Program-made: the position numbers and the translations under genes | The notes under the pieces: generated by a model | What the model was told of the DNA's origin: nothing | Database searches by the model: none | What the model saw: only the letters and a program-made list of their open reading frames with translations | Shown here: positions 5,279 to 36,582 of the stretch, in pieces | Numbering within the stretch: the first letter of the stretch is position 1 | How the letters are laid out: every line of letters begins with the position of its first letter | Source of the DNA: Nitrospirota bacterium | Lineage (GTDB): Bacteria > Nitrospirota > Nitrospiria > Nitrospirales > Nitrospiraceae | DNA length: 64,000 bases | NCBI GenBank assembly: GCA_026387665.1 | Contig: JAPLLG010000005.1 | Span: 62,001 to 126,000, forward strand | Reading direction: 5' to 3'

Positions 5279-5467
5279 CATGAATATTTACAGAGGTTTA
5301 CTCTCAACCTATGCTATTCACATCTGTGCCATTAGACGGGGGCAAGTCCTGTCCTGATAAAGAGCAGATACAAGCCGACGCAGGTCACGTGACAGCAGCC
5401 CTCTAATATCGGTATTGTCACTGCGAGGTGCGCTTACGTGGTTCCCCTAAGCAGCAGGGATATCTCG

Positions 5468-11039: not shown

Positions 11040-12467
11040 ATGGACACCAGCATGAAAAAACGAATCTTGTTGATCGACGATGAGTCCCGAGTCCGGGCCT
11101 CCCTGAAAGCGGTCCTGGAGCCGACCTACGAGACGATCCAAGCCGCCGATGCCCAGGAGGGACTGGAGCTGTTTCGCAAGGAAGCCCCCCATCTGGTCCT
11201 GCTGGACGTAATCCTGCCTGGCACCGACGGGCTGGCGCTGCTCCAAACCCTCCGCGCCGAGGACCGTACGGCCCCAGTCATCATGCTGACTGGCACGAAA
11301 TCCGTCAAAACCGCTGTCGATGCGATGAAGTTCGGCGCGGCCGACTACCTCTCGAAACCCTTCGACGTGGAAGAGCTCCGCATCATCGTCGAGCGCGCGC
11401 TCACGGGCCAGGAGCTCCAGCGGGAAGTCACGCAACTCCGGGCGCAAGTCGTTCGGCGCTATGCCTTTCACAACCTGATCGGCAAGAGCCAGCCAATGCA
11501 GGACATCTACACGAAAATCGAACAAGTCGCCGATAGCCGCACGACCGTCCTGATCACCGGCGAGAGCGGCACGGGCAAGGAACTGGTCGCCAAGGCGCTG
11601 CACTACAACAGCGCCAGACGCGAGCGCCCCTTCATCGCGCTGAACTGCGCTGCCCTGCCTGAAACGCTCATCGAGAGCGAGCTATTCGGCCATGAAAAGG
11701 GTTCGTTCACCGATGCCACGGCTCGTCGGGTCGGGCAATTCGAGCTCGCCAATACTGGGACGCTCTTTCTCGACGAGATCGGGGATCTGAGCCCCATGAC
11801 CCAAGCCAAGCTGCTGCGCGTCTTGCAAGAACGGGAATTCACCAGAGTCGGCGGCGTACAGTCGATCAAGGTGGATGTGCGTATCGTGGCGGCCACGAAC
11901 AAGAATCTTGAAGAGCTCGTCCGCAAAGGGCAATTCCGCGAGGACCTCTACTACCGCATCAACGTCATTGCGCTCTATCTGCCCCCGCTTCGCGAGCGAG
12001 GCGAAGACGTCCCCCTCCTCGCCAAGCATTTTCTGTCGAAACGGATCGAGGAAGAAAACCGCCCGCCCCAAGAGTTCTCCAAGGATGCCATCGACCTCTT
12101 AAGCCGCTATCCCTGGCCCGGCAATGTGCGGGAGATGGAAAACATCATCGAGCAAGCCTTCATTTGGTCCAAGGGATCGGACAGCATCACCCCCGAACAT
12201 CTCCCGACCATTCTCAAAAACGGCACCAGCACCACGTCGCTCCGCGACGACACCCTGGCAGGCCGGCTGTCGCTCGAAAAAGCCGTCATGGAATTCGAGC
12301 GGGAAATTATCCTGGATGCCCTCAAACGCACGCACTATGTCCAAACCCATGCCGCCAATCTTTTGGGCATCAGCCGACGGATGCTTAAATACCGTATGGA
12401 TACATTGAAAATCGGCCGACCCGACAGCGAAGCCGGCGCCGAACCTCAGGCGGTAATAGAGGAATAG
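11040..12467 (+). CDS. NtrC-family sigma54-dependent response regulator
   Basis: This 475-residue protein has the full three-domain plan. The receiver holds LLIDDE, the phosphoacceptor Asp in LVLLDVILPG (near residue 56), MLTGT and the Lys in LSKPF. The AAA+ domain has Walker A GESGTGKE (near 174), Walker B GTLFLDEIGDLS and an arginine-finger region. The Fis-type helix-turn-helix is AANLLGISRRMLKYRMDTL. The loop that contacts sigma54, usually GAFTGA, reads GSFTDA here. It is probably phosphorylated by the kinase 12 nt upstream and activates sigma54 promoters. Translation may start at ATG 11040 or at the in-frame ATG 11052. No -24/-12 promoter was found nearby by eye. Confidence 0.94.
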   Translation: MDTSMKKRILLIDDESRVRASLKAVLEPTYETIQAADAQEGLELFRKEAPHLVLLDVILPGTDGLALLQTLRAEDRTAPVIMLTGTKSVKTAVDAMKFGAADYLSKPFDVEELRIIVERALTGQELQREVTQLRAQVVRRYAFHNLIGKSQPMQDIYTKIEQVADSRTTVLITGESGTGKELVAKALHYNSARRERPFIALNCAALPETLIESELFGHEKGSFTDATARRVGQFELANTGTLFLDEIGDLSPMTQAKLLRVLQEREFTRVGGVQSIKVDVRIVAATNKNLEELVRKGQFREDLYYRINVIALYLPPLRERGEDVPLLAKHFLSKRIEEENRPPQEFSKDAIDLLSRYPWPGNVREMENIIEQAFIWSKGSDSITPEHLPTILKNGTSTTSLRDDTLAGRLSLEKAVMEFEREIILDALKRTHYVQTHAANLLGISRRMLKYRMDTLKIGRPDSEAGAEPQAVIEE

Positions 12468-12547: not shown

Positions 12548-12662
12548 CCGCAGGGCCTCAAGCATGAGCCCATCACACTCCATTTAAATCAGGGATCCTA
12601 GCGCGCGAAAACAACACGACGGTTGCCAGCCATACGACGCAGTGCACGGTAGAGGACAGACG

Positions 12663-13814
12663 ATGGACCTACCAGCGACTCCTGCCCCGGAGGCCCAAAA
12701 ACCGAGCTTGCTCATTATCGACGACGAGCGAGGGCCCCGCGACGCGCTGACGATGATCCTCCGCCACCGTTTCACGATCCTCACAGCGGAATCAGCCAGT
12801 GCCGCCCTGGCCGTCCTCAAGTCCCAACCGATCGACCTCATCACGCTCGATCAAAAACTTCCGGATCGTCAGGGCCTCGACCTCCTCCAGGAAATCAAAC
12901 AACACTATGCCACTGTTGAGGTCATCATCATCACCGGATATGGAAGCCTGACCTCTGCCATGGAAGGGAGCCGGCATGGAGCCTCCGGCTACCTGCTCAA
13001 ACCCTTCAACGTCACGGAAGTCCTGTCCCTCGCCAACCAAACGATCAACAAGAAACAGCGGCTCGATTTTCTCAGGAATTTCCTCAAGACCTCGACCGGT
13101 CTCTGGGGATCAGAGATGGAATGTGCGCTGGGCTGGAAAACCTTACTCGCGGGATACCAGGCAATCGGAACAACGGTGCTGAACCAGCCCTCCCACACGG
13201 ACGAGAGGCCCAACATTCTCCCGATCCTCTCCGACCTGCTAGAGGCTAAGGATCGCCAGCTGCTCCTCCACTCCAGCCGAGTCAGTGCCTACGCCACACT
13301 CGTGGGCCACCGCCTCGATCTGACGCGTACCGAGCAGCAATCGTTGGCGTGGGGGGCCTTTCTTCACGACATCGGCAAGATTTCGCCTGAGACCGCTCAC
13401 CCTACTGACGAGGCCATCGCTGTGGCAGGAGAGGCACTGGGGGATCCGCAACATTCAGAACGGGGAGCGAAACTGATGTTAGCCTTGGGGTTTGCCGCCG
13501 AGGTGGGACAGATCATTGCCTATCACCATGAACGATGGGATGGCTCAGGCCATCCCTATGGATTGAAGGAAGACGGCATTCCGAAACTCGCCCGCATCGT
13601 CTGTCTGGCCCAAGCGTTCGACCATCTGACTGCGGAGCACCCGGGACGAACGCCCCTCTCGCTTGATGAAGCCTGCCAACGGCTGCGCGCACATGCAGGG
13701 ACCCACTTCGAACCAACGCTGACAGAGCTCTTTGTGCAGACAGTCCAGGAAGGCAAGGGCTCCCTTCCTGCCATGGCGATTACCGCCACTTCAGCCCTCC
13801 GCGCCAGCCCCTAA
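12663..13814 (+). CDS. Response regulator with degenerate HD-GYP output domain
   Basis: ATG 12663 follows AGAGGA with 6-nt spacing; the product has 383 residues. The receiver domain has LLIIDDE, the phosphoacceptor in ITLDQKLPD, IITGYG and LLKPF. The output domain (~190-345) has HD-GYP features: LLHSSRVSAYA, HDIGK, QHSERGAKLM, HHERWDGSGHP and ARIVCLAQAFDHL. HD-GYP enzymes hydrolyse c-di-GMP using a bi- or tri-metal site. Two conserved positions differ: GYP is GHP, and the metal-binding Asp of the usual 'ADxFDAL' is Gln (AQAFDHL). Activity may therefore be lost or changed. It is separated from the NtrC-type gene by about 195 bp with its own promoter. Confidence 0.88.
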   Translation: MDLPATPAPEAQKPSLLIIDDERGPRDALTMILRHRFTILTAESASAALAVLKSQPIDLITLDQKLPDRQGLDLLQEIKQHYATVEVIIITGYGSLTSAMEGSRHGASGYLLKPFNVTEVLSLANQTINKKQRLDFLRNFLKTSTGLWGSEMECALGWKTLLAGYQAIGTTVLNQPSHTDERPNILPILSDLLEAKDRQLLLHSSRVSAYATLVGHRLDLTRTEQQSLAWGAFLHDIGKISPETAHPTDEAIAVAGEALGDPQHSERGAKLMLALGFAAEVGQIIAYHHERWDGSGHPYGLKEDGIPKLARIVCLAQAFDHLTAEHPGRTPLSLDEACQRLRAHAGTHFEPTLTELFVQTVQEGKGSLPAMAITATSALRASP

Positions 13815-23848: not shown

Positions 23849-24340
23849 CTAGGCCTTAGTAAAGGTGCCGGACTTGCCGCCCGACTTGGCCAGCAAGCAA
23901 ATATCGCCAAAGCTCATCCCGCGATCGATGGCCTTGCACATATCGTAGATGGTCAGGGCCGCCACGGTGGCAGCGGTCATCGCTTCCATCTCAACCCCGG
24001 TTTGCCCGGTCGTCTTGGCCGTGGCCAGAATGGTGATCGAACAGAGACCGTCGTGATTCGGCTGGGATTCTTCTCTGAAGGAGATATCGACGCTGGTGAT
24101 CAGCAGCGGATGGCACATGGGAATGAGATCCGGGGTCCTCTTGGCCCCCATCACGCCCGCGACCTGCGCGACGGACAAGACGTCGCCCTTGGCGATCTTG
24201 CCCTGCTGAATCTTTTCGAGGGTTTCGGGAAGGAGAAAGACAGTGGCTTGAGCCGTGGCAGCCCGTTCGGTCGAAGCTTTCGCTCCGACATCGACCATGC
24301 GCGCCCGGCCTGATTCATTGAAATGCGTAAATTCTGCCAT
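23849..24340 (-). CDS. moaC: Cyclic pyranopterin monophosphate synthase
   Basis: This 163-residue MoaC has MVDVGAKASTERAATA, GAKRTPDLIPMCHPLLIT, TTGQTGVEMEAMTAATVAALTIYDMCKAID and the catalytic-lysine segment LLAKSGGKSG. It converts the MoaA product to cyclic pyranopterin monophosphate. It is the first gene of the moaC-moaD-moaE-moaA run. No good Shine-Dalgarno precedes the ATG (CTGACAAA), and its upstream region holds two long palindromes (24422 and 24565). Confidence 0.96.
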   Translation of the reverse strand: MAEFTHFNESGRARMVDVGAKASTERAATAQATVFLLPETLEKIQQGKIAKGDVLSVAQVAGVMGAKRTPDLIPMCHPLLITSVDISFREESQPNHDGLCSITILATAKTTGQTGVEMEAMTAATVAALTIYDMCKAIDRGMSFGDICLLAKSGGKSGTFTKA

Positions 24341-24421
24341 TTTGTCAGCTGAATCAGCGCGTTAAGGCTCAACCCCAGGCGGGGATTATAGGGGCCGGTG
24401 GAAAGGGCAGTCAATAGAGGC

Positions 24422-24520
24422 GCAGGGCGGCCTGGATGGTCCCTTTCGCTCGCTGAACGCGCACGATAAAACCGTGCTCGTTCAATGCGCGCGGTGAGGG
24501 ACCAATCCAGGCCGCCCTGC
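24422..24520. repeat. 99-bp near-perfect palindrome (first of a pair)
   Basis: Arms GCAGGGCGGCCTGGAT... and ...ATCCAGGCCGCCCTGC pair over about 22 bp, and the centre has a second stem GAACGCGCACG / CGTGCTCGTTC around a 7-base loop. It lies in the 431-bp divergent gap between moaC (minus) and the protease gene (plus). It is not the Moco riboswitch pattern as far as I can tell. Confidence 0.85.
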
Positions 24521-24564
24521 TGAGGGGAAAGGGGGGGGAGGCTCGAACACATGGGAATGAAAAA

Positions 24565-24665
24565 GGAAGGGCGGCTCCAGTAATCCTCTGTGCTCGCGGA
24601 ACGCGCACGCTCGGAAGGTGCTCATCCGACGCGCGCAATGGAGGATCACTGGAAGCCGCCCTTCC
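24565..24665. repeat. 101-bp palindrome (second of a pair)
   Basis: Outer arms GGAAGGGCGGCTCCAGT... / ...ACTGGAAGCCGCCCTTCC. The centre shares GCTCGC.GAACGCGCACG with the first palindrome, while the outer arms differ, so the two are related elements. On the minus strand the hairpin is followed by CCTTTTTC, so it could stop transcription toward moaC. Confidence 0.85.
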
Positions 24666-24771
24666 GAGAGAGGAGTAGCGAAGCCTTCACCTTTGCAGTA
24701 GACTTGCCTACAACTGATTGCTGAGTCCGCCTTGCCGTGCTACACGGGAAGACTGCAGCGAACCTACTTAG

Positions 24772-25566
24772 ATGATTAGTTCGCACAAAAACATGTCCTC
24801 CCAACCCTCACAGCGTCAAATAGCAATTGCGGAACCATCCGTAAAATCGCTCTTAATCCAGATGAGATTCAACGGACAGCCCCTCAGTACAGGAACCGGC
24901 TTCGTTGCAAACGCTCCTCGAGGACCAGTCCTAATTACAAACCGGCACAATCTAACAGGGAGGCATCAAGAAACAGGGCAACCGCTATCATCGACAGGCG
25001 GGATACCCAACGAGGTTGTAATTTTCCACAACCGAGCAAATCTCCTTGGACAGTGGATATCCAAAATTGAGTCCTTGCGTAATAGCAACGATCAACCTTT
25101 GTGGATCGAACATCCGGATTTGGGCGGACGTGCAGACTTTGTTGCCCTTCCCCTCACCCAAACCGATGGCATACAGCTTTATCCATACACGCTGGGTGTT
25201 GGAGATCCTGCAATCTTGATCGCTCCGGCAGAAGTAGTGAGTGTCGTTGGTTTTCCTTTTGCACTCACCGCGGGTGGTTATCTCGCTGTTTGGGCAACCG
25301 GCTTTGTCGCAACCGACCATGATATCAACTACAACGGCCTGCCAGTATTTCTAATCGACTGCCGAAGTAGACAGGGCCAATCAGGTTCTGCTGTCATTGC
25401 TCATCGACCGGGAGGGGCAGTGGCCACTGAGCAAGGCGTAACAGTCGGTGGCGGTGCAATGACGCGATTTCTAGGTATCTACAGCGGGCGCGTAAACGCT
25501 GAATCGGACCTCGGGTTCGTTTGGAAGGCTACAGCGATTCGACAATTGATAGATACCATTGTGTAA
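24772..25566 (+). CDS. Trypsin-like (chymotrypsin-fold) serine protease, possible transfer
   Basis: A 264-residue protein with a chymotrypsin-fold triad: His in VLITNRHNLTG (near residue 62), Asp in GRADFVALPL, and Ser in RQGQSGSAVIAH (near residue 204). No signal peptide, so it may act in the cytoplasm. No PDZ domain follows, unlike DegP/HtrA. The base composition and codon use (many AAA, CAA, ATT, CTA) are more AT-rich than the surroundings, which suggests recent acquisition. Start at 24772 or the in-frame ATG at 24793. It stands alone. The substrate is unknown; phage defence or stress roles are possible but not shown. Confidence 0.8.
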   Translation: MISSHKNMSSQPSQRQIAIAEPSVKSLLIQMRFNGQPLSTGTGFVANAPRGPVLITNRHNLTGRHQETGQPLSSTGGIPNEVVIFHNRANLLGQWISKIESLRNSNDQPLWIEHPDLGGRADFVALPLTQTDGIQLYPYTLGVGDPAILIAPAEVVSVVGFPFALTAGGYLAVWATGFVATDHDINYNGLPVFLIDCRSRQGQSGSAVIAHRPGGAVATEQGVTVGGGAMTRFLGIYSGRVNAESDLGFVWKATAIRQLIDTIV

Positions 25567-25726
25567 CGAGGCTCGCAAAGGAGCGGGGGTCTTAATTACC
25601 CCATTGAGCTGTCAGGCGAAGACTCCCGAGCCCTTCATTCCCCGACTTCGCAGACGATCGTGTTTGCTGCCTTGCGAGATACGCTTCACGAACGACGGTC
25701 ATTACTGAGACACAGAGGAGATGTCC

Positions 25727-26461
25727 ATGAAGAAAATTCTATTTGGAATCGTCTTGCTGGTGCTGGTCGGGATTGCTGGCGGAATCTGGTGGGTCTACCG
25801 GTCGCTGGATTCGCAGGTGGCTTCGGCGATCCGCACCTACGGGCCTGAGATTGCCGGGGTGCCGGTCTCCCTCTCAAGCGTGAAGATCGGGCTGGCCGAT
25901 GGCTCCGTGGCATTGCGCGGCTTGGTGGTGGGCAACCCCAAGGGCTTCAAAACCGAGCACGCGCTGTCGCTCGGCGAAATCAGCATGAGGCTCGACATCG
26001 GCTCGCTCACCACAGGCGTGATCCAGATCAAGGAGATCTCGATCGTCAAGCCAGACGTTACCTATGAATATGCATCGGGCGGGAGCAATCTCGATGTGAT
26101 CCAGCGCAACATCAAACGTTACGTCGCCAAGCATCTCGACGGCACAAGCGGATCGAAGAGCACGGAGCCGGGCAAGAAATTCATCATCGAACATATCGAC
26201 ATGACGAACGGCACCGCCAACGCCAGCGCGGCGATTCTCAGCGGCAAGACGATATCGGTGTCATTGCCGGATCTGCACCTGAAAGATATCGGCAAAAAAT
26301 CGAACGGCGCAACGGCGGGCGAAGCGGCACAGCAGATCATGGACGAACTCACTGATAGCGTGAAAAAATCTGTGCTCCCGCTCAATCTCGGCGACGTCAC
26401 CGACAGCATCAAGAAAGGCGCAGAGACGGCGGTTGATGCGATCAAGGGTCTCTTCAAATAG
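25727..26461 (+). CDS. AsmA-like membrane-anchored protein
   Basis: ATG 25727 has GAGGAG 6 nt upstream, better than the ATG at 25721. The 244-residue product begins with one membrane helix (ILFGIVLLVLVGIAGGIWWVY) and continues in the periplasm with an AsmA/DUF748-like pattern: VSLSSVKIGLADGSVALRGLVVGNPKGFKTEHALSLGEISMRLDIGSL. These proteins are linked to lipid transport or outer-membrane homeostasis. The C-terminal ~80 residues have an amphipathic helix (LTDSVKKSVLPL...). It lies between the protease and a hypothetical gene, with no clear operon partner. Confidence 0.72.
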   Translation: MKKILFGIVLLVLVGIAGGIWWVYRSLDSQVASAIRTYGPEIAGVPVSLSSVKIGLADGSVALRGLVVGNPKGFKTEHALSLGEISMRLDIGSLTTGVIQIKEISIVKPDVTYEYASGGSNLDVIQRNIKRYVAKHLDGTSGSKSTEPGKKFIIEHIDMTNGTANASAAILSGKTISVSLPDLHLKDIGKKSNGATAGEAAQQIMDELTDSVKKSVLPLNLGDVTDSIKKGAETAVDAIKGLFK

Positions 26462-26499
26462 TCCTGTTGGCGGGCCTTTTCAGCCGCCGCTATGGCCTC

Positions 26500-26529
26500 C
26501 TGACTTTAGGAAGATCACGAGCGTATAAT
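26500..26529 (+). promoter_or_regulatory. Sigma70-type promoter upstream of the hypothetical-folB-PHP genes
   Basis: CTGACT (26500-26505), an 18-bp spacer and a perfect TATAAT (26524-26529), about 95 bp before the GTG at 26626. Confidence 0.5.
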
Positions 26530-26573
26530 GCCGCAGGCTTCGTCGTGAGCGATGAAGCGAAAGTTCGCGCGAG

Positions 26574-26598
26574 AAGGATGCTTAAAAAGTCCGTCAGC
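26574..26598. repeat. Fragment of the 126-bp repeat family, copy C
   Basis: AAGGATGCTTAAAAAGTCC GTCAGC matches one terminal arm of the family; the other arm is not present. Unlike the full copies, it is not next to a stop codon. Confidence 0.55.
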
Positions 26599-26625
26599 GC
26601 TCTGTGAGACGTAGAAGGGAAGATC

Positions 26626-26931
26626 GTGAGCAATCTAGCTAAATTCGATGTGATCCGCCTCTACCTGCGTCAGCAGTTTCCCAAGCATCATATCTCTGAC
26701 TTCGAAGAAGGCACCAGCCGCGCCCAGGTCTTCCGGATCGACGGGCCTCATGGCCATCCCCTCCATTACGCGGTCCTCGGGCTGGACTTTCTCCTCGGTC
26801 AGACTGCCGAAGGTCTGCAACAGACGCTCGTCTCATCCGGGCTGGGAGACAAGCTGAAGGAAGCAGGCGCCTCCCCTGTGACGGTCTCGAAAACTGGCTT
26901 CAGCATTCAAGGCGCTATCGCCATCGCATAG
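26626..26931 (+). CDS. Conserved-looking hypothetical protein
   Basis: A 101-residue soluble protein starting with GTG (GAAGGGAAG upstream). It has 'KFDVIRLYLRQQFPKHHISDFEEG', then two strands and 'LHYAVLGLDFLLGQTAEGLQQTLVSSGLGDKLKEAG...TVSKTGFSI'. I do not recognise the family. It is 2 nt upstream of the folB fusion and is probably cotranscribed. Confidence 0.7.
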   Translation: MSNLAKFDVIRLYLRQQFPKHHISDFEEGTSRAQVFRIDGPHGHPLHYAVLGLDFLLGQTAEGLQQTLVSSGLGDKLKEAGASPVTVSKTGFSIQGAIAIA

Positions 26932-26933
26932 TC

Positions 26934-27884
26934 ATGGCCGGAACCATCATCATCGAACGGCTGGAGTTTCAGGGGCGCTGCGGCGTGACGCAGGAAGAGC
27001 GCCGGAAGCCTCAGCCTTTGGCTGTGGACCTGGAACTGACTTGCCAGACTGAACCGGCTACCGCGTCGGACGACATCCAGCACACAGTCGACTATGCGCA
27101 GGTCACCAATCGGATTATCGAGCTCGCCGCGACGCAGGACTTCTCGCTGCTGGAAACCTTCGCAGAACGAATCCTCTCCATGCTCTTTGCAGAATTTCCC
27201 GTCGATCGCGCCAAGATCTGGCTGCGGAAGCTGTCGCCGCCGCTGAAGCCCGTCACCAGGTCGGTGGGAGTGCAACTCGAACGGTCGCGTCTGGCTCACC
27301 AGATTCAAGGTGGAGAACCAACCCCTGCCCGCTTTCTGACTCAGCAACTCCACCGACTGCCGAAGGGCAAGGCGCTCGACCTCGCATCGGGCTCCGGACG
27401 CAATGCCCTCTATCTCGCCTCGCAGGGCTTTCAGGTCGAGGCCATCGACCGGGATGAACAGGCCCTGGCAGAGCTTGCAGCCACGGCAAAGCAGCGGAAC
27501 CTTCCGAACCTCCACGTCCACACAGTAGATCTCGAACGAATAACCACTGAGTGGCCGGAGTTGCCGAAGCAGACCTACGATGTGATCGTGGTGTTCTTCT
27601 ATCTCCATCGCCCGCTCTTTCCCGCCCTCATCGAATCGCTGAAACCGAATGGGGCCTTGCTCTACGAAACCTTCACCATCGACAATCATCTGCGGCACAA
27701 ACATCCGCGCCGATCTGAATTTTGCCTCGCGCACAACGAATTGCTCCGGCTCACCTCCGGTCTCCGCGTCCTGTCCTACGACGAAGGCGAACATGATGGC
27801 AGCCAGGGACCAAGCTCGGTCTTCACGGCGCAACTCGTCGCCCAGCGAGTAGGCCCCGGCGACCTGCCAGAGGCATCGGCATGA
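26934..27884 (+). CDS. folB: Dihydroneopterin aldolase fused to a SAM-dependent methyltransferase
   Basis: A 316-residue two-domain protein. Residues ~1-118 are FolB: TIIIERLEFQGRCGVTQEERRKPQP, VDYAQV, FSLLETFAERIL and VGVQLERSR, with the catalytic Lys in RKLSPPLKP less certain. FolB converts dihydroneopterin to hydroxymethyl-dihydropterin in folate synthesis. Residues ~130-300 are a class I methyltransferase (TehB-like): ALDLASGSGRNALYLASQGFQV, motif II VEAIDRD, and DVIVVFFYLHRPLF. The methyltransferase substrate is unknown. The stop overlaps the next start (ATGA). No frame break is seen at the junction, so this looks like a true fusion. Confidence 0.85.
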   Translation: MAGTIIIERLEFQGRCGVTQEERRKPQPLAVDLELTCQTEPATASDDIQHTVDYAQVTNRIIELAATQDFSLLETFAERILSMLFAEFPVDRAKIWLRKLSPPLKPVTRSVGVQLERSRLAHQIQGGEPTPARFLTQQLHRLPKGKALDLASGSGRNALYLASQGFQVEAIDRDEQALAELAATAKQRNLPNLHVHTVDLERITTEWPELPKQTYDVIVVFFYLHRPLFPALIESLKPNGALLYETFTIDNHLRHKHPRRSEFCLAHNELLRLTSGLRVLSYDEGEHDGSQGPSSVFTAQLVAQRVGPGDLPEASA

Positions 27885-28729
27885 GCCGCATCGATCTCCA
27901 CCTCCATACGACCCACTCGGATGGAAGCTTCTCGGCGTCTGAAGTGGTCCGGCTCGCCCACCAGGCGAAGGTGACCACGCTGGCCATCACGGACCATGAC
28001 ATCGTGTCCGGCATTCCCGAAGCCATCGCGACTGGAGCGGAGTTGGGCATTGAAATCATTCCCGGCGTGGAGATCAGCTCCCGCGTAGGCGAGAACGAGC
28101 TCCATATGCTGGGTTATTTCTTAAACTGGCAGGATCCAGAGCTGAGCCAACGGCTGGCCACCTTGCGCGAAAGCCGGCATAGCCGCAATCCGCAGATCAT
28201 CGAACGGCTGCGCGCATTGGGGCTGGACGTGACCTATGACGAAGTGAAGGCGCTGGCCGGGACGGACGCGGTCGGCCGTCCGCATATTGCGCGGCTCTTG
28301 ATGGAGAAGAACTATGTCACGTCCGCCAAAGATGCCTTCGATCGGTACCTGGCGAACGGGCGCCCGGCCTATGTCGCGCGGGAACTGCCCCCGCCGGCAG
28401 ATGCCATTGCCTGGATCAAGGCCGCAGGCGGCGTAGCGGTGTTGGCCCATCCAACCTGGGCCACATCGGTAGGAGAAGAACTGGAGCCACTCTTAGCGAC
28501 CCTGAAAGCCGCGGGGCTCGGCGGCATCGAAGTCCATTACAGCACCCACACGAAACGGCAGACAGCGAAATATCTCGGCCTGGCCAAGAAGCTGGATTTG
28601 TTGATAACCGGCGGGAGCGACTTCCACGGCATCACCAAACCGGATATCGAAGTGGGAATTGGGCGAGGAGGCCTGAAGGTTTCCGAAAAGCTCTTAGACC
28701 CGCTCAGGAAAGCCGCTTCCATCCAGTAA
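27881..28729 (+). CDS. PHP-domain phosphoesterase (TrpH / RNase AM type)
   Basis: This 282-residue enzyme begins MSRIDLHLHTTHSDGSFSASE, the PHP metal-binding motif HxHxxxSDG, and has LAITDHDIVSGIPEA, IIPGVEISS, VAVLAHPTWA and ITGGSDFHG. This is the TrpH/YciV family, which removes phosphate from 3',5'-nucleoside bisphosphates and trims short RNA 5' to 3'. It is translationally coupled to the folB fusion (4-nt overlap). Confidence 0.9.
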   Translation: MSRIDLHLHTTHSDGSFSASEVVRLAHQAKVTTLAITDHDIVSGIPEAIATGAELGIEIIPGVEISSRVGENELHMLGYFLNWQDPELSQRLATLRESRHSRNPQIIERLRALGLDVTYDEVKALAGTDAVGRPHIARLLMEKNYVTSAKDAFDRYLANGRPAYVARELPPPADAIAWIKAAGGVAVLAHPTWATSVGEELEPLLATLKAAGLGGIEVHYSTHTKRQTAKYLGLAKKLDLLITGGSDFHGITKPDIEVGIGRGGLKVSEKLLDPLRKAASIQ

Positions 28730-28810
28730 CCAACCCCCCTCACAACGAAGAAGCCCTCTTCCCTCTTGAGACACTTCACGGACGGGAAACGGCAGGCTGT
28801 GAACCGGCCA

Positions 28811-31078
28811 CTATGCGGCGGGGAACGGCTCAGCCTTTTCCTGATGCCTGTTCAGCGCCGCCTCCCGCAAAAGATCATCGGGAGTCTCAGGCGGCGTGTG
28901 GCTCACAGCGACACCGATGCGGCACTCGATCTTCATCGGGATACTAATCCTGGATTCCACCTGAGCGAGCTTGTTCTTCACTCGATCTATTATCACAGCC
29001 ACCTGCTCCACCCCGGCATCCACCAGCAGCACCGCAAACTCATCGCCCCCATAGCGGGCCACGAGATCAGTCCCTCTGGTTGACTCGACAAGCACATCCG
29101 CAACTGCGCGGAGCACTTCATCCCCGATGCTATAGCCGAAGAGATCATTGATATTCTTCAAATGAACGATGTCGGTCACCAACACAATGACGCGGCTTCC
29201 GCGCCGGCGTATTCCCGCAACCAACCGTTGATACTGCTCGCGAAACGCTCGCCGCCCCATCAGCGCCGTCAGGGAATCCGGGGCCGTGAGTGCCAGGAGG
29301 CGGGTCGCGCTGCCCAGCCTGGACGCCATCGCCCTGAGCATGGCCAGGGCCAGCCCCGGCGATTCTTGCAACGTGCGCAGGAACGGCTGTGGCGGGAACA
29401 ACAGGCAACGGGTCTTTCCCATGGTGATCACCGTCGTCGGCCGCATCTCTCCCAAGAAGGCCCCGACCTCACCGAACAGCTCCCCCTGCCCCAACTCCGC
29501 AACAAACCGATAAGCCGATGGCGCATCAAGCGATGCTTCCACCACCCGCACATTGCCCGAAAGGATAAGGAAGATCCGGTCCGTCGGTTCACCTTGCCGG
29601 ACCAAGACAGTCCCGGACTGGTAGACCTCCTCAGTCGCTTGCGCAAACAAATATCCCATCTGCTCCCGGCTCAGAGCGTGAAACAGCGGGACCGCCGCCA
29701 GTATCTCCTCATAGGTTCCAGCAAACCGATGCCCCGCCACTGGAACCTCTCCCGCTGACAATGCTTGGCCTGGCAGAGTCTTTCGAAAGGCAGCAAGCGA
29801 ACGAGAGAGCTGGGCCCTCACACGAGCGCGCAACATCGAAGGGTTGAACGGCTTGGCCACATAGTCGGGATGGAAAACCGCGCCCAGCTGCATGGCACGA
29901 TCCTGCTTGCTCCCCTCCGTCAGGACCAGGGCCGGCAGGCCCGGTTCATTGAACCTGCCACGCAGTTCCTGGATCAGCCAGTCCCAGTCACCGTCCGGTG
30001 CGCAGGCATCGATGATCACCAGATCGGGAGGCAGGCTTGCCGCACAAGCCAATGCGCTGTGGCTATCGGGCGCCGTCAATAGGACCAGTCCGTCTTCCGC
30101 AAGCATTTGGGTCATGCGGCCAATTTCCGTCTCATCAATACTCACCATGAGCACCCGTGCGCCAGCGATAGGCCGCCGCTGCAGCGCGGACACTGTGCTG
30201 ACCTCGTGCCCAACCTGTCCACCCTGCACCTCCAGGTCAAAGCCCTCGGCTGCGGCAAACACGTCGAGCGAAGCCTGACGTTCGGTGACCAACGCGCGCG
30301 CCGCCAGCGCGAGGCGCTCGACCTCGTCATCGTCATGCAGGGGATCATGGTGAAATAGCGCCAGGCGCCCCACTTCGGCCGCCAGCGCGACCTCTGTCGC
30401 ATAGCTCGCGGGGCTATGGCCCCATCCAATCCGGCCCTGATATTCCACATCACTGTATTGCGCATCGTGGATGAGCAGATCCACTCCCTTTAAGAAAGTA
30501 ATGTGCCGTTGGTCTCCTGGATGAACGAGACCTGATCGTGCGGGATCAGCAAAGGGTTCATGGTTCGACACATAGGCCACCGTGGCGCCTCCGTCAGAGA
30601 TACGAAACGCGAACGCGGATGCCGGATGATTCAGATATTGGGTTTCGATCACAGCCTTCCCCAACCGGAAGAATCCTTCTCCCAGTTCGAAGTAACGGAT
30701 CCGCCCCATCAGATCGCAGAGCGTGGGAGAGAAGTTGGTGCGGCACATTTGGCTGGCGAGGGCCGCTTCCAGCCCACGTTGAAATCCGGCTGGAGCATAC
30801 ATGCTCACGTCAGTATCAGGCCAGAGTGACTGGAGGAAAAACGGAAGCCCCTGAATATCATCCCAGTGCGTATGTCCGATAAGCAGATTGAGTTTCAATG
30901 GCCGAGGCGAACGATGGAGCTCCAGGCTCAAGGCCTGGGCGCCGGTCCCGCAATCCAGAATAATGATGGTGCCGTCAGCGGTCCGAAGCTCCACACAGGG
31001 TGTGTTGCCACCGAACCGTATCGTGTGCCGCCCCGGCGTCGGAATGCACCCGCGAGTACCCCAGAAACGGACTCTCAT
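28811..31078 (-). CDS. MBL-fold / receiver / cyclic-nucleotide-binding / GGDEF fusion protein
   Basis: A 755-residue cytoplasmic protein. Residues 1-270 are a metallo-beta-lactamase-fold domain of the RNase Z/lactonase type: GGNTPCVEL, LDCGTGA, the metal motif HTHWDD instead of HxHxDH, YVSNHEPF and LLIHDAQYSDVEY...GWGHS. About 300-425 is a receiver-like domain (ARVLMVSIDETEI...LVIIDACAPDGD...VAKPF). About 455-575 is a cyclic-nucleotide-binding fold (FLILSGNVRVVE...GELFGEVGAFLGE). About 585-745 is a GGDEF domain with an intact YGGDEF and the I-site RGTD five residues before it, so it should make c-di-GMP with product inhibition. GGAGG precedes the ATG. It stands alone on the minus strand. Confidence 0.88.
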   Translation of the reverse strand: MRVRFWGTRGCIPTPGRHTIRFGGNTPCVELRTADGTIIILDCGTGAQALSLELHRSPRPLKLNLLIGHTHWDDIQGLPFFLQSLWPDTDVSMYAPAGFQRGLEAALASQMCRTNFSPTLCDLMGRIRYFELGEGFFRLGKAVIETQYLNHPASAFAFRISDGGATVAYVSNHEPFADPARSGLVHPGDQRHITFLKGVDLLIHDAQYSDVEYQGRIGWGHSPASYATEVALAAEVGRLALFHHDPLHDDDEVERLALAARALVTERQASLDVFAAAEGFDLEVQGGQVGHEVSTVSALQRRPIAGARVLMVSIDETEIGRMTQMLAEDGLVLLTAPDSHSALACAASLPPDLVIIDACAPDGDWDWLIQELRGRFNEPGLPALVLTEGSKQDRAMQLGAVFHPDYVAKPFNPSMLRARVRAQLSRSLAAFRKTLPGQALSAGEVPVAGHRFAGTYEEILAAVPLFHALSREQMGYLFAQATEEVYQSGTVLVRQGEPTDRIFLILSGNVRVVEASLDAPSAYRFVAELGQGELFGEVGAFLGEMRPTTVITMGKTRCLLFPPQPFLRTLQESPGLALAMLRAMASRLGSATRLLALTAPDSLTALMGRRAFREQYQRLVAGIRRRGSRVIVLVTDIVHLKNINDLFGYSIGDEVLRAVADVLVESTRGTDLVARYGGDEFAVLLVDAGVEQVAVIIDRVKNKLAQVESRISIPMKIECRIGVAVSHTPPETPDDLLREAALNRHQEKAEPFPAA

Positions 31079-31308
31079 GGCGCACCTCCCCTCATTCAGT
31101 TACGTTTCCACTTTGTGGAGATAATCATGCATCGCCCTTCTCCTAGCGACGCCATGACTTCCCGGCCCACATAACCAACGTTGCACCAGGCGTCCATCAC
31201 TCTCACAGAACGACCACCGCCTCGACGTAATCGCGTCACCAGATCACACGAAAAATAAAAAACCCCCTCGCGACATCTTTTACATTTAACGCAGTGAGTA
31301 GGTCCCTC

Positions 31309-31349
31309 TATACCTAGAGACACTAATGAAGCTTTTATACCTAGACACA
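31309..31349. repeat. Direct repeat tatacctaga.aca in an intergenic region
   Basis: tatacctagagaca (31309-31322) recurs with one mismatch at 31336-31349, 27 bp apart. The rest of the 449-bp gap 31079-31527 holds no gene I trust; a 98-codon frame at 31326-31622 has no Shine-Dalgarno and overlaps the next gene in antisense. Confidence 0.45.
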
Positions 31350-31527
31350 GGCGAACTCTATCTACCCATCCCTACGAAATCAAGCACGCAGATTGGCGGC
31401 GAGGCAGCCAGGGCAGCACAGCACGACCCGTGCCATCCAATGGCTAAGGTGAAGCAGGAGCTAGGGATCCTGATTACTTTTATGGAGCTATTAGGGGAAC
31501 AAGTACCGGTGGAGGACGAGAAAGACC

Positions 31528-32541
31528 TTAATTTTCTGGCGCTTCGACGATATGGTTTTCAAACCTGGTGCAACCCTCGGCGAGGAGCCGGTTGGTCAGC
31601 ATTTCTCCAGGCCATTCAATAGGCAAGTCAGCCGTGAAGACCCACACATCGGGAGAGGTCCAGACGGGACCATGGTCTTCGGGCAACTCGGGATCGAACA
31701 GATCGGTCCAGACCGGCATGTAGACGCCGTTCCCACATTGGGTATGGAGATGGACGATCGTACGGGCACGGACGAGGGGGTCCAGATCGCGCCAGACTGC
31801 GGCCGTCTCATCCGCCAGCCGATGGAGGCGGACAGCGTTTTGCGCGTCGAACATGGCATAGGCGGCGTAGACCGGCGCTTCAAGCATATCGGGAGCCAGA
31901 GCCAGCTCGGGACATTGCTCCACGAGGCCTTCGAGGAGGGCCCGGCGATGCCGATCCTCCAGCGCATCCGGCAATCCGGAATCCGGTACACCGATCAACT
32001 CAAAGAACAGAAACGCGGTGCTCTCGACCGGCGGATAGAGCCGGGCTGCAATGGACGTGGTCCGCTGGGAATCCGCCACCGAACTCAAGTGATCGTTCAA
32101 ACCCTGAAGGCTGAGAGGCTCCAAGGTCGAGTCGGTGAGTAACCGGGACTCCACCCGCACCACGGTCCCGGCGGAGAGACGCAGATGGCGATGCAGAAGA
32201 TCTGCCGTCGCAACCGGATCGATCTTGAGCTTGAGCGGATGGGACAGGTTGGCTTGAAGAGGCAGTTCCAAGGCCGCCATGATGGCATAGGACAGTTTTT
32301 CATCGGTCGGCCCATCGAGAATCACGGAACAGGAGGCCTCCGCGAGCAGGTCGAAGAGCCATTCCGCCATGTCTTCATCCAGCGCCGCCAGCACTGTGAG
32401 GAGATCGTACTCCCGTCCCTGCTCCAAGAAGGCTTGCAGCGTATCGATCGCCGCATCGGTATCGCCATGGTCATGGCGCCGGGCATTGATCAAATGGACG
32501 AGATCGCGCGTGAGGGGGTCAGGACGAGACCAACTCAACAT
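31528..32541 (-). CDS. Hypothetical protein, 337 residues
   Basis: An unrecognised soluble protein, MLSWSRPDPLTRDLVHLINARRHDHGD. It is Leu-, Glu- and Asp-rich with helical repeats 'DLLTVLAALDEDMAEWLFDLLAEA' and 'SYAIMAALELPLQANL', then a mixed segment with VHLHTQCGNGVYMPVWTDLFDPELPEDHGPVW and ends NHIVEAPEN. The 'HLHTQCGNG...P' region might bind a metal or nucleotide, but no known motif fits. No signal or membrane segment is visible. The next gene on this strand, yjbQ, is 128 bp upstream. Confidence 0.65.
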   Translation of the reverse strand: MLSWSRPDPLTRDLVHLINARRHDHGDTDAAIDTLQAFLEQGREYDLLTVLAALDEDMAEWLFDLLAEASCSVILDGPTDEKLSYAIMAALELPLQANLSHPLKLKIDPVATADLLHRHLRLSAGTVVRVESRLLTDSTLEPLSLQGLNDHLSSVADSQRTTSIAARLYPPVESTAFLFFELIGVPDSGLPDALEDRHRRALLEGLVEQCPELALAPDMLEAPVYAAYAMFDAQNAVRLHRLADETAAVWRDLDPLVRARTIVHLHTQCGNGVYMPVWTDLFDPELPEDHGPVWTSPDVWVFTADLPIEWPGEMLTNRLLAEGCTRFENHIVEAPEN

Positions 32542-32669
32542 ATAAACACACTCCTCACCATATAACCGTGCATCACTGCTCTCATGTTGCCAAACTTTCC
32601 CCTATGGTAGCAAGCAATTCACTAGTTTATTCCGACAGGGTCCAGACCAGCGATCACATAACCGAAGGC

Positions 32670-33107
32670 TCACGCGCCAATCACCTTCACCAACACGCGT
32701 TTTCGCCTCATCCCGTCAAACTCCCCGTAGAAAATTTGTTCCCAGGGGCCGAAGTCCAAGCGGCCTCCGGTAATCGCCACAACGACTTCCCGACCCATCA
32801 GCTGACGCTTAATATGGGCATCGCCGTTATCTTCGCCCGCTTCATTGTGCCGGTAGGTCGCGCCCTGAGGAACCAGCTCTTCCAGGAATCGGTCATAGTC
32901 CTTGAGCAAGCCCGATTCGTCGTCATTGATATAGACGCTCGCGGTGATGTGCATGGCGTTGACCAGCACGAGCCCCTCTTGGACGCCGCTCTTCCTGACC
33001 GCCGCCTCAACCTGCTGCGTGATGTTGAGATAGGCGCGCCGCGTCTTCGTTTCAAACCAGAGCTCTTCGCGATAGGATTTCATCATCGTCGGCCAGTGGG
33101 TGCTCAT
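32670..33107 (-). CDS. YjbQ-family protein (secondary thiamine-phosphate synthase)
   Basis: About 145 residues, with the YjbQ/UPF0047 pattern: [86 protein letters not shown] and [16 protein letters not shown]. coli YjbQ has thiamine phosphate synthase side activity; its main role is unknown. The conserved His residues (HITAS, YRHNE, DAHIKR) probably bind metal. The start is uncertain: ATG 33107 or ATGs at 33086/33083; none has a strong Shine-Dalgarno. It diverges from the RNR gene. Confidence 0.85.
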
Positions 33108-33161
33108 TCTGCCGAACCGGACGAGCAAGATGCAAGCAGGACACAATCACGGGGCCCCTCG

Positions 33162-33189
33162 TTCAATCAGGCCGATACCTGTATATAAT
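33162..33189 (+). promoter_or_regulatory. Sigma70-type promoter for the RNR gene, possibly leaderless
   Basis: TTCAAT (33162-33167), a 16-bp spacer and TATAAT (33184-33189). The expected start site is at or next to the ATG at 33196, and no Shine-Dalgarno is present. Confidence 0.5.
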
Positions 33190-33195
33190 GGCGGC

Positions 33196-34965
33196 ATGGC
33201 CGTAAAGAAGACGACACCCTCACGCCCGCCGCGCACGCCGCGATTGCAACTGTCCGACCATGCCACGACCGTCCTCCATGGACGTTACCTGGCCAAGAAT
33301 AATGTAGGAAGGATCATCGAGACCCCGGCGCAGCTCTTCTGGCGTGTGGCCACCGACATTGCCCAGGCGGAGCGACTCTACCCCCAGGCCAGCCGGCTGC
33401 CCCAGGCGGCCCAGCGCTGGTACGATTGCATGGCCCGGCGCGACTTTCTTCCTAATTCCCCCACGCTGATGAACGCGGGACGACGGCTCCAGCAACTCTC
33501 CGCCTGTTTCGTCCTCCCGGTCGAAGACTCCCTCCTCTCCATTTATGACAGCCTCAAACATCAAGCCCTTATTCACCAATCAGGCGGCGGGACAGGATTC
33601 TCCTTTAGCCGCGTACGTCCGCACAACGACTTGGTCGCCTCGTCGAGCGGCGTGGCCTCCGGGCCCATTTCCTTCATGCGCCTCTTCAACCTCTCGACGG
33701 ACGTCATCAAGCAAGGCGGAACCAGACGCGGCGCCAATATGGGCATCCTCCGGATCGACCATCCGGACATCCTCGACTTCATCTCGCTCAAACAGACGCC
33801 GGAGGAAATGACGAATTTCAATCTCTCCGTCGGCATGACCGACTCGTTCATGCAGGCGCTCGCACGCCAGCGCACCTTTGCCCTGATCAATCCCCGCACC
33901 CATAAACCGACCAAGCGGTTCCCGGCCCAGCTCCTGTTCGATCGGCTCGTGGAAGCGGCCTGGGCCAGCGGTGAGCCGGGACTGATTTTCCTCGACACCA
34001 TCAATCGCGCCAATCCGACCCCGCATCTGGGCGCCATCGAGTCGACCAATCCCTGTGGCGAGCAGCCGCTACTGCCCTATGAGTCCTGTACCCTCGGCTC
34101 CATCAATGTCGCGAACTTCGTCACGCGCACATCTGCACAACCAGCCATCGACTTCGCCAGATTGGCCGAAACCATTCCCCTCGCCGTGCGCTTCCTCGAC
34201 AGCGCCATCGATCGCAACCGTTTCCCCCTTCCCGACATCGACCGCATGACGAAACGCACGAGAAAAATCGGGCTGGGCATCATGGGTTTTGCGGACCTCC
34301 TGATCGCGTTGAACATCCCCTATAACTCCGACGCCGCGATCCAGACCGCTACGGCACTGATGAAGTTCTTTCAGGAACAGGCCCATCGCGCCTCCGCAGA
34401 CCTCGCCAGGGCGCGCGGAGTCTTTCCCGCCTATCGGGGCAGCCAACTCCAGATCCGGCACCAGCGGCAGCGCAACGCGACCGTCACCACGATCGCACCG
34501 ACCGGCAGCATCAGTCTCCTCGCCGACTGCTCGCCCGGCATTGAACCGATCTACGGAGTCCAGGTCTCCCGCCGCGTCATGGACGGAGTGGTCCTCACTT
34601 CGCAACATTCAGCCTTCATCCGCCGCGCGCAGGCACTCGGACTCGACCTCGACCGGCTCCAATCCGACTTGGCGGCTCAGCCCTCCATTCAACAGCTCAC
34701 GTCGATTCCGGAAGAGCTCCGACGGCTCTTTGTCACGGCGCATGACGTCTCGCCCGAACAGCATGTGCGGATGCAAGCGGTGTTTCAGCGGTACAGCGAC
34801 AGCGGCGTCTCGAAAACCATCAATCTGCCGGCTACGGCGACCAGGTCCCAGGTGGCGGAGGCCTTTCTCCTCGCCTACCGACTCGGATGCAAAGGCCTCA
34901 CCGTCTTCCGGTCCGGCAGCCGGGAACAACAAGTTCTCTCGTGCCATCCTTCGCAACCCTGCTAG
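33196..34965 (+). CDS. nrdJ: Adenosylcobalamin-dependent (class II) ribonucleotide reductase
   Basis: A 589-residue RNR. It has the ten-stranded barrel landmarks: PNSPTLMNAG, SACFVLPVEDSL, SGGGTGFSFSRVRP, KQGGTRRGANMGIL, the finger-loop NPCGEQPLLPYESCTLGSINV with the radical Cys, and TTIAPTGSISLLADCSPGIEP. Class II enzymes generate the thiyl radical from B12 and need no oxygen and no NrdB; none is present nearby. The C-terminus ends SCHPSQPC, a plausible Cys pair for re-reduction; it lacks the zinc-ribbon tail of longer NrdJ forms. The frame stays open upstream of 33196, but that ATG gives a sensible start. Confidence 0.94.
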   Translation: MAVKKTTPSRPPRTPRLQLSDHATTVLHGRYLAKNNVGRIIETPAQLFWRVATDIAQAERLYPQASRLPQAAQRWYDCMARRDFLPNSPTLMNAGRRLQQLSACFVLPVEDSLLSIYDSLKHQALIHQSGGGTGFSFSRVRPHNDLVASSSGVASGPISFMRLFNLSTDVIKQGGTRRGANMGILRIDHPDILDFISLKQTPEEMTNFNLSVGMTDSFMQALARQRTFALINPRTHKPTKRFPAQLLFDRLVEAAWASGEPGLIFLDTINRANPTPHLGAIESTNPCGEQPLLPYESCTLGSINVANFVTRTSAQPAIDFARLAETIPLAVRFLDSAIDRNRFPLPDIDRMTKRTRKIGLGIMGFADLLIALNIPYNSDAAIQTATALMKFFQEQAHRASADLARARGVFPAYRGSQLQIRHQRQRNATVTTIAPTGSISLLADCSPGIEPIYGVQVSRRVMDGVVLTSQHSAFIRRAQALGLDLDRLQSDLAAQPSIQQLTSIPEELRRLFVTAHDVSPEQHVRMQAVFQRYSDSGVSKTINLPATATRSQVAEAFLLAYRLGCKGLTVFRSGSREQQVLSCHPSQPC

Positions 34966-35085
34966 CCAGCGGCTTCCTACGGGCACAAGCCCTCGCAAAA
35001 TTGACAGCACTGGGTGATGATGATAAGTATTTTCGAAGCTTAATTGACCGACGCGTAATTGGATCGCTCAGCAGGGAGGTGCTCG

Positions 35086-35835
35086 ATGGCTACGCTCGTT
35101 GGGAACCTGACCTCAGTCGGGAATCCTTTTCATTGGACCCTCCTCTTTGCCCGCCAACCGGACCCGGACTTGGAGTTTACGGAAGAGGAGCTCGATCAGA
35201 CGACCGCCACGAGAGCAACCGGCCCACTGCCTCCCCACAAGAAATCAGGAGGCAGCCGCCCGATCCTCTGGATCTTGCTATTGCTCCTCGTCGGCATGGC
35301 CTACCTGGCCGTCATGAAGCCGGAGATGCTGGCAGCCTGGTTGAACCCCTACCTGGGCGAACATGCGCCACAGCCGACAGTGGCCATGCAGCCGAAACCG
35401 GTGCCTCCGGCGCTCGTGATTCCAGCTCCGCCAGAGGCTGCACCAGAGCCCCCAACAACGCCAAGCCCGAATGACGAAGTCTCTGCCCCCGCGGCCCAGA
35501 CGAGCACTCCCGCCACAACTGTGGCCCCTACAGCCCCGACAGCCGTTCTCCCCCCAGTCGCAGCAAAATCAGCTACGCCGGCCGAGCCCCTCCCTGCCCC
35601 TCTGTTCGGCGAAGGACAGAAAGTGACCGTCACAGCAAATCCGAATACGCCAGGCGGAAGCATTCTGCTATACGAAGATGCCTCCGGCACCAAGCCAGGG
35701 CCACTCGTTCGCGCGGGAGTGGCCATGACCGTCCTGGACGGCGACCTCCAACCAAGCGGCTGGATGTACTGGGTGCGCACCGACGAGGGAATCAAAGGCT
35801 GGGTATCGGAGAAACGTCTTCGAGTGAAACGCTAA
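35086..35835 (+). CDS. Single-pass membrane protein with C-terminal SH3 domain
   Basis: ATG 35086 follows AGGGAGG; the product has 249 residues. After ~50 cytoplasmic residues comes a transmembrane helix (ILWILLLLLVGMAYLAVM), then a long Pro/Ala/Thr-rich linker (about residues 90-180), and an SH3b-type domain at the end (VTVTANPNTPGGSILLYEDASG...WMYWVRTDEGIKGWVSEKRLRV). Bacterial SH3 domains often bind cell-wall peptides, so a periplasmic envelope role is likely. The function is not otherwise known. A perfect TTGACA at 35001 could be its -35 box, but the -10 is weak. Confidence 0.75.
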   Translation: MATLVGNLTSVGNPFHWTLLFARQPDPDLEFTEEELDQTTATRATGPLPPHKKSGGSRPILWILLLLLVGMAYLAVMKPEMLAAWLNPYLGEHAPQPTVAMQPKPVPPALVIPAPPEAAPEPPTTPSPNDEVSAPAAQTSTPATTVAPTAPTAVLPPVAAKSATPAEPLPAPLFGEGQKVTVTANPNTPGGSILLYEDASGTKPGPLVRAGVAMTVLDGDLQPSGWMYWVRTDEGIKGWVSEKRLRVKR

Positions 35836-35886
35836 GCCTCACATGTTTGCTCGCGCAGACCGGCCCACATTATCGATACAAGCCTC

Positions 35887-36582
35887 ATGAACACACTCTC
35901 AGCAATCATCTTTGACTTCGACGGAGTCATCGCGGACAGCGAGCCCCTCCATTTCGCCGGCTTTCGCCTGACGCTGGCGGAAATCGGCATCAGCCTGACC
36001 GAATCGGACTACTACGCCAACTATCTAGGCTATGACGATCGCGGCTGCTTTATCGCAGCGCTGACGGCCCACCAACGTCCTGCCGACCCCTCGGTCCTCG
36101 CGCCGCTGATGCAACGGAAAGCACAGGCCTACCTGGAATCGGTCAAGGACCATCTGGTCATTTTCCCCGGTGTGCGCGAGTTTGTGTCCGAAGCCGCCGC
36201 CACCTATCCCTTGGCCATTGCGTCCGGCGCGCTCCGCCATGAAATCGAGTTCATCCTTGAACAGGCGGGGCTCCGAAAAGCCTTCCTCCACATCACCGGC
36301 GCGGAGGACGTCACCAAGGGGAAACCGGACCCGGAGCCTTTTCTCCATGCCCTGGCTGCCCTGAATCGACAACGCCCGAATCAGACCATTGCCCCGGACT
36401 CCTGTTTGGTCATCGAGGATTCCATCCCGGGCCTGCGCGGCGCAAAGGCCGCAGGCATGAAAGTCCTCGCCGTCGCGAACACCCACACCATCCAAGATCT
36501 GCATGAAGCCCATGCAGTCGCCCAGAGCCTTTCACAGATTCGCCTCAGCGAACTCCGTGAACGCTTGTGGCCACAGACATAA
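35887..36582 (+). CDS. HAD-superfamily hydrolase (beta-phosphoglucomutase-like)
   Basis: A 231-residue HAD protein: motif I IIFDFDGVIADSE (nucleophile and acid Asp), the alpha-helical cap with YYANYLGYDDRG, motif II ASGALR, motif III Lys in TKGKPDP, and motif IV VIEDSIPG. The set fits the phosphatase/phosphoglucomutase subfamily; the substrate cannot be told from sequence. It lies 12 bp before hpnD and may be the source of a phosphatase step, but this is not shown. Confidence 0.9.
   Translation: MNTLSAIIFDFDGVIADSEPLHFAGFRLTLAEIGISLTESDYYANYLGYDDRGCFIAALTAHQRPADPSVLAPLMQRKAQAYLESVKDHLVIFPGVREFVSEAAATYPLAIASGALRHEIEFILEQAGLRKAFLHITGAEDVTKGKPDPEPFLHALAALNRQRPNQTIAPDSCLVIEDSIPGLRGAKAAGMKVLAVANTHTIQDLHEAHAVAQSLSQIRLSELRERLWPQT

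Follow-up and report, generated by a model that had tools for sequence, protein, structure and literature searches.

A probable diguanylate cyclase of Nitrospirota that shares a four-domain layout with its relatives and has changed two conserved metal ligands of its MBL-fold domain

Does a protein that joins an MBL-fold domain, a receiver, a cyclic-nucleotide-binding (cNMP) domain and a GGDEF domain on one chain still use all of these inputs, or has part of it been dismantled? The gene that raises this question lies in a stretch of 64,000 nucleotides (hereafter, the window) from a Nitrospirota bacterium (GenBank assembly GCA_026387665.1, contig JAPLLG010000005.1, positions 62,001 to 126,000). 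It has an ATG start and no internal stop, and the purine-rich sequence GGGGAGGTG lies immediately upstream of the ATG (Table 1). All four domains score above their Pfam cut-offs, in the order given by the initial annotation, which had also recognized the I-site: Lactamase_B_2 (PF12706; residues 39-244, 37.2 bits against a cut-off of 27), Response_reg (PF00072; 319-421, 35.0 against 30.2), cNMP_binding (PF00027; 484-572, 61.3 against 27.5) and GGDEF (PF00990; 601-749, 112.8 against 23.8). The arrangement of these domains in a model of the whole protein (pLDDT 77, pTM 0.58) is unreliable. The species is represented by this one sequence only, and its genome holds no second copy of the gene. We think it probable that the protein is a diverged member of a family of MBL-pseudoreceiver-cNMP-GGDEF cyclases, that is, a cyclase of the cyclic-nucleotide type whose hydrolase input has been dismantled. 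This reading draws on the domain order, the residue changes, an acceleration centered on the MBL domain and a locus shared with relatives.

Table 1. Window coordinates of the cyclase gene, its domains and motifs, and the flanking features
Feature	Residues	Position	Strand	Basis or remark
Complete ORF, MBL - pseudoreceiver - cNMP-binding - GGDEF	1-755	28811..31078	-	755 aa
MBL-fold domain	1-290	30209..31078	-	Pfam PF12706; AlphaFold2 model; RNase Z / YhfI-like phosphodiesterase fold
HTHWDD motif	69-74	30857..30874	-	HTHWDH in relatives; H74D in window only
Asn172 at expected metal-bridging Asp position	172	30563..30565	-	Asp in 79/79 relatives
Receiver-like domain	306-428	29795..30163	-	Acidic pair lost; D357/T387/K409 present
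cNMP-binding domain	456-573	29360..29713	-	Pfam
Phosphate-binding cassette FGEVGAFLGEMRPTTV	535-550	29429..29476	-	Glu537 and Arg546 kept, Pro547 replaces Ser/Thr
Predicted helix, cNMP domain to GGDEF, CRP C-helix-like position	574-596	29291..29359	-	Model; domain arrangement unreliable (pTM 0.58)
GGDEF domain	597-749	28832..29290	-	Pfam
I-site RGTD	668-671	29066..29077	-	Five residues upstream of GGDEF
GGDEF motif	677-681	29036..29050	-	Exact
ORF337, upstream neighbor, no Pfam family		31528..32541	-	Conserved anchor gene, 91/100 genomes searched
PHP-domain protein, convergent downstream neighbor		27881..28729	+	Pfam scan of neighbors
Stretch missing in four close relatives, ORF337 and PHP genes directly adjacent		28717..31527		Locus comparison

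The layout is no one-off. It recurs in at least 46 other full-length proteins encoded by single ORFs, counted among the 80 highest-ranking of the 150 loci confirmed in a scan of named genomes. These relatives carry metagenome-bin labels of Nitrospirota (Nitrospirae), Rokubacteria, Acidobacteria and Chloroflexi; one with a Chloroflexi label (L046) may be mis-binned, as it sits among nearly identical Nitrospirae rows. Counts over 46 rows exclude any row in which one of nine marker positions was a gap or X (from contig ends or split frames such as L083, L089 and L091), as well as L087, which has a different C-terminus; the two alignments, one of 34 relatives and the window and the other of 25 and the window, were chosen for spread. 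Scanned singly, 35 members (window included) all matched GGDEF, cNMP and Lactamase_B_2, and 34 matched Response_reg. A set of 100 genomes yielded eleven further full-length copies at 46-56% identity. In the phylum Nitrospirota, 21 of 395 genomes match at E 1e-60, MBL-only matches included, and 7 of 175 genomes of the window's family match at 1e-100. Elsewhere, the same MBL domain is joined to a receiver and nothing else (L104) or to a GAF domain (L100, L105 and L106) and, judged by length only, apparently stands alone (L111-L115, for example). In a Chloroflexi protein (L087:1266-3254), an MBL and a cNMP domain are followed by a CRP-type helix-turn-helix, with no receiver match at threshold, so that a DNA-binding output replaces GGDEF. 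One member of the same family, from a Baikal MAG (L083:6259-8266), is split over two frames, through a frameshift in the gene or a mistake in the assembly. The possibility that the architecture is common and already characterised, raised at the outset, is thus borne out as to recurrence but not as to characterisation: the parts are known, and the four-domain combination is apparently undescribed, no description of it having been found in the open-licence literature, which is weak evidence of absence.

The MBL domain resembles phosphodiesterases. Its AlphaFold2 model (pLDDT 85, pTM 0.89) is structurally closest to RNase Z (Z 25.6, rmsd 2.8, 246 aligned), followed by E. coli ZiPD and B. subtilis YhfI (the latter with Z 24.4, rmsd 2.6, 231 aligned), although families absent from this comparison are not thereby excluded. 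A profile search concurs (RNase Z 1.9e-16, YhfI 2.4e-4). Ribonuclease Z itself was rejected as an identity, the NCBIfam equivalog TIGR02651 scoring 76.6 bits against a cut-off of 292.95. The motif HTHWDD, in place of HxHxDH, is present as first reported. A second ligand change had gone unmentioned: D172N, within SNHEP (171-175), where full-length relatives read [T/S/A]DHEP. Residues H69, H71, D73, H74, H151, D172, H173, H221, H243, H244 and D245 are identical in all 79 relatives whose rows include residue 69, and the window has D74 and N172. By motif position, H74 is the counterpart of His96 in PNGM-1; the available part of PMC7404133 reports that the H96A mutant had metal occupancy among the lowest, a weakened Zn2 and no catalytic water. 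The column of D172 aligns with the Asp of VVYTGDT in 8gyg and, on that alignment, is taken as the place of the bridging Asp. We infer that D172 would be equivalent to D180 of Rv1339, for which the available part of PMC9293780 describes an inactive D180A mutant and a residue thought to bind both metals; the window has Asn172 instead. Gly68 is invariant among 12 aligned sequences, and hence full-length relatives read GHTHWDH. The window's GHTHWDD departs from the [T/S]HXHXDH signature given for atypical class-II cyclic nucleotide phosphodiesterases in the same excerpt of PMC9293780.

Change is concentrated in this domain. Of 121 MBL positions that are at least 95% conserved among the other rows, 21 are changed in the window, against 6 in the second most deviant of the 47 rows; the window's departures elsewhere (2/20 in the receiver, 1/18 in cNMP and 3/38 in GGDEF) are within the range of the other rows shown. 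Several of the MBL departures fall in conserved stretches that hold or flank the metal motifs (74-83, 109-117, 152-155 and 172-177), and none falls in 218-246 (WGHS, HHDP). The window's end branch ranks first of 47 in the MBL tree (0.81 against a median of 0.081), third in the receiver and cNMP trees and seventh in the GGDEF tree. Tajima-type relative-rate tests, which compare changes unique to the window with those unique to a sister, gave MBL counts against L042 of 60/18, 57/19, 54/16, 56/14 and 54/18 with five outgroups (p 2.6e-5 to 4.3e-7); against L038, MBL was significant with all five (p 0.005 to 5.3e-6) and, against L040, with both outgroups tried. The sequences are related and these tests are not independent of one another. 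Among the other domains tested against L042, the receiver had p values of 0.02 and 0.043 for two of the five outgroups, and cNMP and GGDEF gave none below 0.05 (GGDEF p 0.41 or more); against L038, receiver and GGDEF were significant with none of five outgroups and cNMP with one (p 0.024). From these counts, the acceleration is clear in the MBL domain, which is not the sole departure, since the receiver (L042) and cNMP (L038) fall below 0.05 with some outgroups. The proposal that the hydrolase may be altered is hence strengthened: two conserved metal ligands have changed, 0 of 79 relatives share either change, and the acceleration is centered on the same domain.

The output end looks intact by comparison with PleD. 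Beside the motifs in Table 1, the window has D636, N644 and D653, which align with PleD and which we take to be the metal Asp and the guanine-contact Asn and Asp. All 46 relatives retain the Arg and the Asp of the I-site. The GGDEF motif is exact in 31 of them, the others having GSDEF (9), SGDEF (2), GADEF (2), GTDEF (1) or GGDDF (1); because 15/46 carry such variants, output activity does not seem universally preserved in the family. Despite an atypical C-terminus (AALNRHQEKAEP), the window protein probably makes c-di-GMP. The preceding cNMP domain is less regular. The phosphate-binding cassette of CRP is marked by a Glu and an Arg-Ser/Thr pair, and the C-helix of CRP leads to the output. Relatives keep E537 (46/46), R546 (45/46) and Ser/Thr547 (45/46). 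The window lacks the Arg-Ser/Thr pair, having Pro547 followed by Thr548, and the sister L042 is the sole exception among the relatives, with Arg546 lost (PASRV); the pocket change therefore recurs in the window/L042 branch. Given Pro547 and Thr548, cyclic-nucleotide gating in the window may be lost too. The suggested link from cAMP to c-di-GMP is thus plausible for the family, in which the pocket is canonical in nearly all members, but weaker for the window protein.

The remaining parts of a c-di-GMP network are also encoded in this genome: six proteins exceed the cut-off for GGDEF, the window's among them (one matched in two pieces), and there are 18 PilZ matches, one EAL protein and a receiver-HD_5 protein that lies within the window (12642-13814). 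A source of cAMP is possible, since a search for class III cyclases only gave one match, in a CHASE2-cyclase-PilZ protein. This protein (L118:1117-3309; C11, about 68460-70660) could itself be a reverse link, from c-di-GMP to cAMP; by eye, what we take to be its transition-state Arg position reads His (NTASHLE). Next to the receiver-HD_5 gene, a histidine kinase (9756-11027) and a sigma-54 response regulator (11040-12467), the window also encodes a 1401-residue ORF (5438-9643, plus strand) with a PAS domain, two PilZ stretches, and hydrolase/acyl-transferase-like and methyltransferase-like domains. A link to defence was rejected, the only PADLOC matches being weak ones of the cNMP domain to PycTIR-type effectors (8.7e-6).

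The locus has a history of its own. ORF337 is a conserved protein (93-100% identical within the genus) with a function unassigned by Pfam; it was considered as an operon partner, lying 17 bp away in L042, and was set aside as an anchor gene on account of its presence with or without the cyclase. By neighbor clustering of related Nitrospirota loci, ORF337 is upstream in L040, L042 and L083, and the downstream PHP-domain and FolB-methyltransferase genes are common to L038, L042, L083 and L088. The latter gene (26934-27884, plus strand) fuses FolB (dihydroneopterin aldolase) to a TehB-like methyltransferase, and related ORFs of similar length occur in four related loci. The cyclase gene is found in 0 of 31 other same-genus genomes (18 of them at least 90% complete and at most 5% contaminated), 30 of which had a match in the search with ORF337. 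Eleven same-genus loci (12 returned less the window's own) could be compared. In four (L152, L158, L159 and L160, of G010, G002, G015 and G020), about 57 bases separate the equivalents of window positions 31528 and 28716, which means that the gene is precisely absent together with its intergenic DNA; in the remaining seven, the downstream stretch differs. Loss in the close relatives is likelier than gain in the window because sister genera hold the gene at the same place. The cyclase gene is at the family's ancestral locus and was probably inherited vertically. Horizontal transfer is unlikely, as the locus is shared and the GC content of the gene (0.605) is like that of its neighbors (0.603-0.607). 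The 449-bp gap upstream of the gene (31079-31527; 17 bp in L042) has a GC content of 0.519, against about 0.60 for the genes. Searches for regulatory signals returned 0 promoter-like sites (1.0 expected), 3 terminator-like sites (2.5 expected) and 0 Rfam matches at 24000-36000.

These observations bear on several alternatives. The strongest is that the gene as a whole is decaying and on its way out of the genus, with GGDEF simply not yet lost and with the loss of the MBL site and the change in the cNMP pocket as steps towards the deletion seen in close relatives. Its absence from all 31 other genomes of the genus, the precise absence between conserved neighbors at 4 of the 11 other loci and the alteration of both sites would fit such a course; however, the 755-codon frame is open, conserved positions of the GGDEF, cNMP and receiver domains are kept at ordinary levels, GGDEF and cNMP rates are like those of the sister L042, and the MBL motifs in 218-246 are untouched. 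We consider decay of the whole gene unlikely. It is also conceivable, but quite improbable, that D74 and N172 form a new metal center, perhaps mononuclear or with a different metal, so that the MBL domain was redesigned and not lost. Neither change is seen in any of the 79 relatives, and the nearby conserved positions 113, 115, 117, 152, 154, 155 and 177 have also changed, which resembles relaxed constraint; on the other side, H69, H71, D73, H151 and H244 remain, both changed residues keep metal-ligating groups, and fast evolution centered on the MBL domain fits adaptation as well as relaxation.

The initial annotation had suggested that the receiver takes input from a kinase, and a conventional response regulator, in which an orphan kinase phosphorylates the receiver and so controls GGDEF as in PleD or WspR, would be the corresponding explanation. 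PleD is indeed the best solved-structure match, and D357, T387 and K409 are present. The acidic pair at the end of strand 1 of a receiver serves Mg2+, though, and opposite the Asp-Asp of PleD the window has Ser313-Ile314; at this first position, 313, the 46 relatives carry Ser, Thr, Gly or Asn and in no case Asp. The other positions vary as well, with D at 357 in 36/46 (not Asp in 10), T at 387 in only 22/46 and K at 409 in 34/46, and there is no kinase among the eight neighbor genes scanned. As the receiver is without its acidic pair throughout the family, phosphorylation is unlikely; kinase input is poorly supported, and we regard a conventional response regulator as very improbable. An assembly or base-calling error behind the odd residues has next to no probability, in view of 21 scattered MBL departures, a clean frame and normal conservation elsewhere.

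We thus return to a diverged family member with a dismantled hydrolase input, for which the biochemical steps, judged from residues and models, would be as follows. A GGDEF dimer would synthesize c-di-GMP and be subject to feedback by its product at the I-site. Gating of this output would fall to the cNMP domain, by way of a CRP-like helix continuing directly into GGDEF, and the receiver, independent of phosphorylation, would serve as a spacer or for interactions. The MBL domain of relatives is probably catalytically active, a dinuclear phosphodiesterase by which a small-molecule signal is supplied or removed; in the window, H74D and D172N would have dismantled the metal center and left a domain that no longer hydrolyzes but binds or has a structural role, or is a relic. 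The cyclase end, meanwhile, is apparently still under constraint. A bolder idea, to which we give little weight, is that the family is a self-limiting converter between two messengers, in which a cyclic nucleotide is sensed by the cNMP domain, GGDEF responds by making c-di-GMP and the MBL phosphodiesterase destroys the same nucleotide on site. The window protein would then be a natural catalytic knock-out, its timer removed or turned into a ligand-binding sensor. If the MBL domain acts on cyclic nucleotides, the family would link two messenger systems in one protein with its own off-switch. The family offers a combination of cNMP-GGDEF and MBL in organisms with little signaling biochemistry, and the window copy and its relatives make a ready-made comparison of a dismantled and an intact hydrolase on the same chassis.

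Known systems share parts of this design, Lcd1 and Bd1971 being the nearest among characterised proteins. The enzymes named in the available text of the review PMC8846402 include a cyclase that senses cAMP through GAF and an EAL enzyme with a cNMP domain; no characterised cNMP-GGDEF cyclase appears there, nor does the word lactamase. The GAF-based cyclase is Lcd1 of Leptospira interrogans, in which a cAMP-sensing domain likewise switches GGDEF; cAMP is sensed there by GAF and not by a cNMP/CRP domain, and that text mentions no MBL or receiver. In Bd1971 of Bdellovibrio, a cNMP-EAL protein, a CRP-type cNMP domain is helix-coupled to a c-di-GMP enzyme, but the output degrades c-di-GMP, and the available part of PMC6717892 speaks of neither an MBL nor a receiver. 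YhfI, Rv1339 and Apyc1 share the fold and PF12706, a family named for the atypical class-II group in the excerpt of PMC9293780, and their two-metal HxHxDH-type ligands are found in the window protein's relatives. The accessible part of PMC9117128 gives YhfI a preference for cAMP and cGMP and Apyc1 a broad cleavage of cyclic mononucleotides. The sources, as far as available, describe no fusion of these enzymes to signaling domains, and the window differs from them in HTHWDD, in Asn172 and in a pre-motif Gly in place of Thr or Ser. PleD and WspR also combine a receiver with a GGDEF domain that has an I-site; in the window protein, by contrast, the receiver is without the acidic pair and a cNMP domain stands between receiver and GGDEF.
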